Positions 48,376-51,550 of a stretch of 64,000 bases of DNA are shown one piece after another; within the stretch, counting starts at the first letter, position 1, and every line of letters begins with the position of its first letter. The notes under the pieces were generated by a model. It was given only the letters and a program-made list of their open reading frames with translations. It ran no database searches and was not told where the DNA came from. The translations under genes were made by a program, and so were the position numbers. Location of the stretch: contig OY282382.1 of the NCBI GenBank assembly GCA_958295905.1, positions 2,504,001-2,568,000 on the forward strand. The letters are read 5' to 3'. Source of the DNA: an uncultured Vicinamibacterales bacterium. Lineage in GTDB: Bacteria; Acidobacteriota; Vicinamibacteria; Vicinamibacterales; UBA8438.

Positions 48376-49650
48376 TCAGGCCGTCTCCGCCAGATACGGA
48401 ATCGTCTGCGGACCTTCGGGGAGGACGCAGACGCGGGCGTCCGGTCCCGACCGCGAGAGCGCTTCGACGGTGGCGGCGCCGACGTCGTCGATCGGGGTGA
48501 GATGCGCGGCCCGCACTTGGTCGGCCGAGAGTCCGTCGGTCTTGAGCAGCACGTCGGCGCGCTGCTGAATCTGGGCCTGCACCTGCACCTCCCACTGGTC
48601 GTGGCGGTTGTGGCCGGGGGCGTTGATCATCTCCAGCAGCCCGTCGGGGCTGTCGCGCCGGGTGAGGATGTCCAGATACTCCCCGTGGTCGGGGTAGCCG
48701 TCGGCGCAGGCCGACGCGCAGACGATGACGCCGTCCGGCTTCACCACCTGCGCCGCCGCCGACATGCCCTTCACCGTCTGGTAGAGGTTCTGGTCGAGGG
48801 GGTAGCCGCTGTTGGTGGTGACGACGACGTCGAACGGCCGGGCGAACGCCTGCATCGCGTTCCGCTTGACCACCGCCCGCACCGCCCGGTGCACCGCGAA
48901 CAGCTCGCCGGCCGCGACGTGGGTGATCCGGCGGTCACGGTTGATGGCCACGTCGACGCTGAAGTCAACCCCGGAACGGGCCGCGATGGCCCGGATGCCG
49001 TCGTGGATGGGGTTGCCCTCGATGACTCCCCAGCGCGCCTGCGGGCTGCCGATCATCTCGGCGTCGTGCAGCCGCATGATCGTGCGGAAGCCGGCCAGCC
49101 CCGGCGCGACCATCTTCGGCCCGCCGCTGAAGCCGGCGAAGAAGTGCGGCTCGACGAACCCGGTGGTGATGCGGACGTCCGCCTCCACCCACGTCCGGTT
49201 CAGCCACACCGGGACGCCGCCGTCGACCTCGCCGAGGGAGACGAGCTGCGCGTCGTCGAACGCGTCGTGGACGACGATGCGGTTGTGGTCGACGATGTCC
49301 GCGCCGAGCATCTCCACCAGCTCGCCCCGGGTCGTCGCCCGGTGGGTACCGCTCGCGATCATGATCGCGATGCGGTCCGCGGGCACGTGCGACAGGGCTT
49401 CGAGCACCACCGGCAGCACCGTGGCGCTCGGCATCGGCCGGGTCACGTCGCAGACGGAGATGGCCACGGTCTGGTCGCGGCGCACCCGTTCGCGCAAGGG
49501 GGCGCTGCCCAAGGGGTGATCGAGCGCCCGCCGCACGGCGCCCGCCTGGTCCGGCAGTCCGTCCAGCCAAGTGGGCTCGATGACCGTCGTGCGGTCGTCG
49601 GGAAACTCGACCGGCAGCCCGGTGCGGCCGTATGCGAGATTGACGATCAT
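48376..49650 (-). CDS. LarA-like nickel-pincer racemase family protein
   Basis: A 424-residue member of the nickel-dependent lactate racemase (LarA/DUF2088) family. The key residues are in place: His in IASGTHRATT, His and the cofactor-tethering Lys in EPHFFAGFSGGPKMVAPG, and a further His in MRLHDAEM. The N-terminal LarA_N domain contains SVCDVTRPMPSATVLP. Homologues racemise or epimerise various 2-hydroxyacids and sugar acids, so the substrate is open. It would need LarB/C/E from elsewhere. ATG 49650 has a GGGAGGGAGG ribosome site. It lies downstream of the UGSC selenoprotein gene on the same strand, with element A between them. Confidence 0.88.
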   Translation of the reverse strand: MIVNLAYGRTGLPVEFPDDRTTVIEPTWLDGLPDQAGAVRRALDHPLGSAPLRERVRRDQTVAISVCDVTRPMPSATVLPVVLEALSHVPADRIAIMIASGTHRATTRGELVEMLGADIVDHNRIVVHDAFDDAQLVSLGEVDGGVPVWLNRTWVEADVRITTGFVEPHFFAGFSGGPKMVAPGLAGFRTIMRLHDAEMIGSPQARWGVIEGNPIHDGIRAIAARSGVDFSVDVAINRDRRITHVAAGELFAVHRAVRAVVKRNAMQAFARPFDVVVTTNSGYPLDQNLYQTVKGMSAAAQVVKPDGVIVCASACADGYPDHGEYLDILTRRDSPDGLLEMINAPGHNRHDQWEVQVQAQIQQRADVLLKTDGLSADQVRAAHLTPIDDVGAATVEALSRSGPDARVCVLPEGPQTIPYLAETA

Positions 49651-49734: not shown

Positions 49735-49874
49735 ATTGTGCCAGATCGGACCTAAAACGATTCTACGGCGCAGACTCCCGGCCCGGAAATCGCCGCGGGG
49801 CGGCGCTCCACCAATCCTGCCGGGCGTCGGCGCCTCTTTTCACGAGGCGGCGCCGTTCTGCGGCGCGGACTTCC
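49735..49874 (-). repeat. Dispersed element A, copy 8 (composite)
   Basis: Minus-orientated composite: first part (49735-49777) matches, as reverse complement, the 45-base variant body and head of the double copy at 39037; second part (49778-49874) is a normal A body with the CGCCTC / GAGGCG hairpin and head. The last 12 codons of the UGSC gene are encoded by its head, and the TGA stop lies in its hairpin loop. Confidence 0.7.
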
Positions 49875-50424
49875 GGCGCGCGGTCAGCACGTGTTCGAGC
49901 TGCGCCGCGGCCTCCTTCGCCCGATCCTCGATCTCGTCCTCCGAGAGCGTGCTCAGGGGGTGGGTGATGACGATCGGCTCGAGGTCGTCGGCGCCGAGGG
50001 CGGCGCGTTGCGTCTCGGCTTCCTCAAGAAAGGCGGCGGTCACGATGACCGCGGTGGGGATTCCCCGCTGCTCCAGCCGGGCCGTGTCGTGCACACTGCA
50101 CGACGTGCACGACCCTCAATCTCCGATCGCGGTGACGACGACGTCGTTCTCGGCCGCGATCCGGTCGAGCAGGGCGTCGGTCGCCTCGCGCGAGAAGCTG
50201 TCTTTGACGTAGCGGTGGACTTCCGCCGGCTCGCAGGCGCCGGCGAAGGCGGCCGCGGTGTGCCGCAGCAGCCGCGACGCGTTCCACTTCGAGTTGTCCA
50301 GCACCCCCAGCCGCACGCCGCGGAGCGTCTCGGGCCGCGGGGCGAGCCGGATCTGCGCGGCGGTGACGGCGCCGCGCGGGTCGAACACGATCTGCCCGGA
50401 GGGCAGGGTCTGCTGACTGCTCAT
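49840..50424 (-). CDS. UGSC family selenoprotein
   Basis: One 194-residue frame interrupted by a single TGA at 50116-50118 (codon 103). Translated through, it reads VVVTAIGD-Sec-GSCTSCSVHDTARLEQ, giving the exact U-G-S-C motif (Sec103, Cys106, plus Cys109) that defines the UGSC family of selenoproteins. Sequence on both sides is family-like (APRPETLRGVRLGVLDNSKWNA before; GIPTAVIVTAAFLEEAE after). A hairpin with a three-base GUG loop follows (50086-50104). The biochemical role of the family is unknown; the Sec/Cys pair suggests redox chemistry. ATG 50424 follows a GGAG site and starts 22 bases after the 367-aa gene. Without Sec decoding it would be called two short ORFs. Confidence 0.88.
50086..50104 (-). 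promoter_or_regulatory. Bacterial SECIS element of the UGSC gene
   Basis: Perfect eight-pair stem GTCGTGCA / TGCACGAC with a three-base GTG loop starting 19 bases after the TGA. Because GTCGTGCA is directly repeated just upstream, an alternative nine-pair stem with a ten-base loop (stem 50113-50105 with 50094-50086) can also form, but it lies nearer the TGA than usual. Confidence 0.8.
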
Positions 50425-50446: not shown

Positions 50447-51550
50447 CTACAGCTCGCACGTCCCGTCCACGCACGGCGCCGGGCCGGCCGGGGCGCGTCC
50501 GTCGACGGCGCGCAGGACCGGCGACGTCATGTGTCCCCATCCGGGGAGGAAGGCCGAGAACCGGCCCGCCTCGCCGCCGGCGACGAACAGGTGGATGTCC
50601 TCCGGGGCCGGCACGATGGGGATGCGGGCTCCCGGTCTGCGCCGGTACCACTTCGGCAGGTTGCGGTTGTAGATCCGGCCGTACCGGCCGCCGAAGCTGA
50701 CGTCGTCCCAGGTGTTGGCGGTGTGCGACCACAGGTAGCGCCGCACGTCGCTCCGTTTCCAACCCTTCGCCGCGATGGTGGCGGCGTGCTCGGGACCGAT
50801 GACGACGGCGCACGATCCACTGCTGACCGCGTTGTTGTGGGCGATGGTGCTCATGGCCGAGACGATGCTGTCGAGCACGCCCTCCGGGTCGTGCGCCACG
50901 TGGTTGGTCACGCTGTGCGGGCCCTCGGCGGCGATGCAGAAGACGGCGCTGTCCTCGGGGCGGTAGCCCTGCTCGACATGATAGGGCGCCCACGGGCTCG
51001 CCTCCTCGTTCTCGGCGATGCAGAACGTGTACTTGCCGGGGTGGCCCAGGGTGCTCTTGTCGAGGTCTCCCGGCCGCGCGCCGCCGACGTTGAGCAGAAT
51101 CAGCCGGATGGCGCGGCCGATCGTCGCATTCGCCCGGTTGCCGGAGCCGAAGACGTTGGCGCCGGCGTTCATCCCGATCTCGGTGCGGACGGGGCCGTTG
51201 ACGACCAGGAGCGGGGCCGCCATGTGGGTCGTGGCCTGCACCCCGTGCAGGTTGAAGTGGGGGCTGCACAGCGCGAGCATCGCGGTGCGGACCAGCGGCG
51301 CATAGGCGGGCCGGCAACCGGCGAGCGCCAGGTTGACGGCCAGCACCTCGCGGGTCAGGTTGCCCCACCGAGGGGGGACCCGGGTCTCGACCCGCTCCGG
51401 TTCTCCCCCGAGCGCGTCGACCATCGCCCCCACCGACTGCGGGGTCGGCGGCACCACCGGGAGGCCGTCCGTCCAGCCCTGCCGGAAGTACCATTCGACG
51501 AGGTCGACGGGTTCGCGGTCCGGCCGCCGCGCGATCTGATCGGTGCTCAT
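50447..51550 (-). CDS. Uncharacterised protein linked to the UGSC selenoprotein
   Basis: A 367-residue cytosolic protein I cannot assign to a named enzyme. It starts with a conserved-looking block (VEWYFRQGWTDGLPVVPPTP) and has segments rich in conserved small residues (LHGVQATTHMAAPLLVVNGP, GMNAGANVFGSGNRANATI, DKSTLGHPGKYTFCIAENEE). The C-terminus ends PCVDGTCEL, a Cys pair that could be a substrate or partner for a Sec/Cys redox protein. The UGSC gene begins 22 bases downstream, implying cotranscription. The start ATG 51550 fits; longer openings run into the glycosyltransferase gene. Confidence 0.8.
   Translation of the reverse strand: MSTDQIARRPDREPVDLVEWYFRQGWTDGLPVVPPTPQSVGAMVDALGGEPERVETRVPPRWGNLTREVLAVNLALAGCRPAYAPLVRTAMLALCSPHFNLHGVQATTHMAAPLLVVNGPVRTEIGMNAGANVFGSGNRANATIGRAIRLILLNVGGARPGDLDKSTLGHPGKYTFCIAENEEASPWAPYHVEQGYRPEDSAVFCIAAEGPHSVTNHVAHDPEGVLDSIVSAMSTIAHNNAVSSGSCAVVIGPEHAATIAAKGWKRSDVRRYLWSHTANTWDDVSFGGRYGRIYNRNLPKWYRRRPGARIPIVPAPEDIHLFVAGGEAGRFSAFLPGWGHMTSPVLRAVDGRAPAGPAPCVDGTCEL

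Follow-up and report, generated by a model that had tools for sequence, protein, structure and literature searches.

We analysed a 64,000-nt stretch of the genome of an uncultured Vicinamibacterales bacterium (hereafter the window). A gene on its minus strand (49840..50424) scores above the cut-offs of both profiles for the UGSC family, with 149.8 bits against 125 for NF041046 and 192.6 bits against 25 for PF24696. Read from 50424 to 49840, the frame has a single interruption, a TGA at 50118-50116 (50116..50118, minus strand) that corresponds to residue 103, and it ends in a stop codon at 49842-49840. Readthrough gives a protein of 194 aa including Sec103, with the stretch ...AIGDUGSCTSCSVHD... 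around the interruption; the U/C-G-S-C motif of the family takes the form UGSCTSC here. A sequence-only reading of this DNA had proposed a UGSC-family selenoprotein with an in-frame TGA, a U-G-S-C motif and an additional CTSC cysteine pair, and the profile scores and the translation bear this out. UGSC selenoproteins were described no later than 2008, when GOS data from marine and freshwater samples showed the family to be one of the major selenoprotein families (PMC2398784), and the window gene is an additional member. The gene has two neighbours on the same strand: 22 nt upstream lies a conserved partner gene encoding 367 aa (50447..51550), a homologue of which adjoins UGSC elsewhere, and downstream lies a LarA-type nickel-dependent racemase (48376..49650; 522 bits for NF033504 against a cut-off of 460).

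At the first position of the motif, the window's TGA aligns with TGA in relatives and with TGC or TGT in 25 loci that encode Cys-type homologues. Were the TGA a genuine stop, or an error in the sequence that splits the gene, with the downstream hairpin as an incidental feature, this would explain the stop codon itself and nothing further. TGA recurs at the same site in dozens of genomes and is replaced by Cys in others, homology extends on both sides of it, and the hairpin described below is retained in TGA forms only; we consider a stop or an error practically negligible. The search for Sec genes that the sequence-only reading had suggested found a complete set in the window's own genome: a tRNA-Sec of 63 bits, over the Rfam threshold, together with SelA (542 bits), SelB (332 bits, with its C-terminal part in the same frame) and SelD (290 bits), all above their cut-offs, so the proposal is not refuted by missing machinery. 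From these sequence comparisons, we take decoding of the TGA as Sec to be almost certain and the window gene to be a genuine, ordinary UGSC-family selenoprotein gene.

Across the window's phylum, we found tRNA-Sec above the Rfam threshold in 302 of 396 sampled genomes and UGSC above its cut-off in just 40 of the 396. UGSC is expanded in G165, G315, G094 and seven other genomes of the phylum (family f42, genus g80; loci L114-L142), which carry a strong tRNA-Sec. Three expansion genomes were searched in full and gave 28, 27 and 11 PF24696 matches, with an in-frame TGA in about 20, 17 and 6 of them, respectively. The expansion genes are mostly frames of 550-650 aa, many with a partner homologue in or adjoining the same frame; the hairpin of the window is missing from variants such as UGSCTKFL, several of which do not conform to any simple SECIS model. 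The window's own genome has a second UGSC gene (L060). Downstream of this gene, amid short repeated pieces of its end, lies an incomplete copy of the C-terminal part that is nearly identical but lacks the Sec motif (approximately 4588-4806 of L060, C1:4564587-4564805 of the genome).

Downstream of the TGA, the direct repeat GTCGTGCA occurs at +3..+10 and +12..+19 (50113-50106 and 50104-50097), mostly because the peptide repeat S-C-T-S-C uses the common codons TCG and TGC. The segment TGCACGAC at 50093-50086 is able to pair with each of the two copies, and both of the alternative stems that had been predicted from the repeat can be drawn. In stem B, the 5' arm GUCGUGCA (50097..50104, minus strand; +12..+19) forms 8 bp with the 3' arm UGCACGAC (50086..50093, minus strand; +23..+30) under a GUG triloop (50094..50096, minus strand). 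In stem A, the 5' arm GUCGUGCAC (50105..50113, minus strand; +3..+11) forms 9 bp with 50086-50094 (+22..+30), leaving a 10-nt loop that begins 11 nt after the UGA. The two stems use a common 3' arm and are mutually exclusive on paper. In isolation, stem B has a computed energy of -12.4 kcal/mol and stem A one of -15.4 kcal/mol, and the favoured fold varies with the length of flank included: stem A at 36 and 60 nt, stem B with a lower stem at 40-48 nt. The 43-nt fold, stem B plus the lower stem, has a z of -2.3; this lower stem is absent from the consensus fold of the relatives, hence we make no claim for it. When the window peptide was resampled with synonymous codons, stem B with a GU loop arose in 0.22% of the resampled sequences, and 0.03% folded as stably as the window sequence. 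The window hairpin thus exceeds chance. An Rfam scan of the window at gathering thresholds matched only a tRNA, and the SECIS belongs to no curated family.

Published limits for a bacterial SECIS are a loop of 3-9 nt with G in its first two positions, a stem of 4-16 bp, a distance of 16-37 nt from the UGA and an energy of at most -7.5 kcal/mol (PMC13188914). Stem B lies within all of them (3 nt, GUG, 8 bp, 19 nt, -12.4 kcal/mol), as had been proposed for the GUG mini-loop and its distance from the UGA, whereas stem A falls outside them in spacing (11 nt) and loop size (10 nt). We read stem B base by base in 48 TGA-type genes from relatives, mostly of the same bacterial family, and scored covariation in 51 distinct TGA-type sequences that include more distant genera of the phylum. 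A standard pair occupies 383 of 384 stem B cells in the 48 genes. Across the 51 sequences, 97.8% of cells are paired and 4 of the 8 pairs have changed on both sides, a level reached in 0 of 500 shuffles; compensation is exemplified by L025 (TCA...CAT) and L036 (ACA...GAT), and in L059 and L092, where the protein has Trp in place of Cys, a C-G pair has been replaced by G-C. The best SECIS candidate has its loop start 18-19 nt after the UGA in all 72 core genes, almost always with GU, and the G and U of the loop are nearly invariant. Codon choice follows the hairpin as well. Away from it, Ser codons in the same genes are TCG in 42%, TCC in 21% and AGT in 3.6% of cases; the loop Ser is AGT in 46 of 46, and the Ser of the stem B 5' arm is TCG in 46 of 47. 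By conservation and geometry, the far stem (GUCGUGCA-GUG-UGCACGAC) is one ordinary candidate SECIS, and the near stem is not SECIS-like.

The Cys-type homologues served as a control. These 25 loci, from Pseudomonadota and Bacteroidota, were collected by the pattern DCGSCTSC, which returns Cys-type genes only. They share the peptide, yet a complete stem B occurs in none of them, AGT encodes the loop Ser in 0 of 25, and on average 5.3 of the 8 stem B pairs can form. Of the 72 Sec forms, 71 have the inner part of stem B, as against 0 of the 25 Cys forms. A protein tree of 97 sequences, some deep branches of which are long and weakly placed, requires one change for the Sec/Cys difference and two for the inner stem B; the branch holding the Cys forms has a support of 92, below the starred level. 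The family thus offers a clean natural control, in which the same peptide is encoded with one hairpin kept in Sec genes and without it in Cys genes.

Stem A (50105..50113 with its 3' arm) is unconserved. Its full set of pairs occurs in 8 of 72 genes (8 of the 48 read at base level), a pattern that takes five changes on the 97-sequence tree for these eight rows, and in the 51 distinct sequences 77.3% of its cells are paired, at or below the level of shuffles, with no pair changed on both sides. Within the window's genus, a single synonymous TCG/TCC base breaks it, as seen between L016 on the one hand and L017 and the window on the other. The comparison of the hairpin in relatives therefore gives a split result: compensatory changes preserve the far stem, and no such conservation is seen for the near one. 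The first Ser of the repeat decides whether stem A can form, and among the 48 genes it is TCC in 30, TCG in 13, TCT in 4 and TCA in 1. TCG, the codon that permits pairing, shows no enrichment here, and its share is if anything below that found in the rest of the genes (binomial p 0.03, with kinship among the sequences ignored). In synonymous resampling, 12% of the sequences with stem B also had stem A, compared with the observed 8 of 48; therefore, once S-C-T-S-C and stem B are given, neutral codon choice accounts for roughly the observed frequency of the double hairpin.

The sequence-only reading had suggested that exchange between the two stems tunes Sec insertion, with stem A as the off state of a two-state RNA switch. 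The common 3' arm, the greater computed stability of isolated stem A, the shift in fold preference with the length folded and the recurrence of TCG at the first Ser in several branches would all fit such a switch. Against this stand the scattered occurrence of stem A, its loss by a synonymous base within the genus, the missing covariation, a frequency that matches neutral codon choice, a deciding codon without TCG enrichment, and TCC at the first Ser of the second UGSC gene in the window's own genome. We regard a switch as very improbable, and this part of the earlier reading is not supported. A different possibility is that selection acts against stem A at the first Ser, which would make the window's TCG a mildly harmful decoy and not a neutral variant. 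TCC in 30 of 48 genes against a background of 21%, and TCG in 13 of 48 against 42%, point in this direction; the binomial test, however, treats related sequences as independent, and simulation with background codons expects about the number of complete stem A copies observed. We consider such selection unlikely, though less so than a switch. The computed energy of isolated stem A is more favourable than that of the SECIS by 3 kcal/mol, and for this reason stem A might reduce Sec insertion in this strain.

Decoding of the window gene would proceed through stem B. At the UGA, SelB and Sec-tRNA-Sec would insert Sec, for which the machinery is present, and SelB would be recruited by one SECIS of 8 bp, the inner 6 bp of which form the conserved core, with a GUN loop. 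With the UGA in the A site, the first downstream bases lie in the mRNA tunnel of the 30S subunit, and a SECIS has to open in its lower part (PMC4513850). The 5' arm of stem A (+3..+11) would at that moment lie in the 30S mRNA channel; the ribosome should therefore melt stem A and leave stem B free. Folding the window sequence from +10 or +12 onward gives stem B alone. Stem A would be a by-product of the peptide, because S-C-T-S-C spells GTCGTGC twice if its first Ser is encoded by TCG. In summary, we think it highly probable that the gene encodes a UGSC selenoprotein decoded via one SECIS, with stem A as a side effect, and that the protein probably belongs to a two-subunit enzyme. More generally, a short peptide repeat can give rise to a decoy hairpin beside a SECIS.

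To the protein itself, an AlphaFold2 model assigns five alternating strands and helices with a pLDDT of 90.7 and places Sec directly before a helix. Its matches among PDB structures are weak and are flavodoxin-like and Rossmann-like. The fold is accordingly predicted to be flavodoxin/Rossmann-like, and the thioredoxin-like fold assumed for UGSC by earlier authors (PMC2398784) is not favoured by the model; no thioredoxin-fold chain is among the listed structure matches, which excludes nothing by itself. Sequence searches of the PDB with the UGSC profile and with the partner profile returned nothing significant. The partner belongs to no Pfam or NCBIfam family, and a homologue of it lies beside UGSC in 25 of 25 Cys-type loci and in most TGA-type loci. 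Its structural model gave weak matches only: Foldseek pointed to class I fumarase and Toblerone-fold hydrolases, and VIA to pieces resembling chorismate mutase (best Z 6.3); we accordingly assign it no fold. Across several phyla the partner shows good conservation, and in the window's bacterial family its C-terminus reads C-[VT]-D-G-T-C-x-L. LarA is kept downstream of UGSC in relatives of the same family.

A thioredoxin-like thiol oxidoreductase that acts alone, outside any GrdB-like two-subunit enzyme, would suit the UxxC motif and the fold assumed previously. The confident flavodoxin/Rossmann-like model, the partner gene fixed beside UGSC across phyla and a weak but repeated similarity to GrdB and GrdF speak against it, and we hold a lone oxidoreductase to be a minority possibility, if a serious one. 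Gene context suggests that UGSC probably provides the Sec-containing subunit of an enzyme whose second subunit is the upstream partner. By analogy with GrdB-type selenoprotein B, the likeliest chemistry may be Sec-based reduction or reductive cleavage, although the analogy is a weak one. It is a tentative and rather unlikely extension that UGSC and its partner form a new Se-dependent two-subunit reductase, distant kin of the glycine and proline reductase selenoproteins, acting on a 2-hydroxyacid-like substrate that LarA handles. The fixed partner protein and the possible GrdB-type chemistry provide leads to the function of the UGSC family.

Among known systems, the window protein is closest to the UGSC family itself (NF041046, PF24696), which it resembles over the whole domain, in the U-G-S-C-T-S-C motif and in the in-frame UGA, with no essential difference. 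A weak profile likeness over the Sec segment connects it to PrdB and to selenoprotein B of glycine/sarcosine reductase (GrdB, TIGR01917; GrdF, NF040794). The similarity to GrdB and GrdF occurs in 19 of 21 UGSC members, with best E-values of 1.5e-4 and 4.1e-4; the match starts at residue 76 and model position 323, and a gap-free offset would put the window's Sec103 at model position 350. UGSC nevertheless scores far below the cut-offs (18.7 against 602 bits for TIGR01917 and 14.1 against 800 for NF040794), is much shorter and has another partner protein, and in place of a grd operon the window has a LarA neighbour. The UGSC/Unknown_1 fusion reported from GOS data (PMC2398784) likewise pairs UGSC with a conserved second protein; there the two are fused, whereas the window has separate genes.
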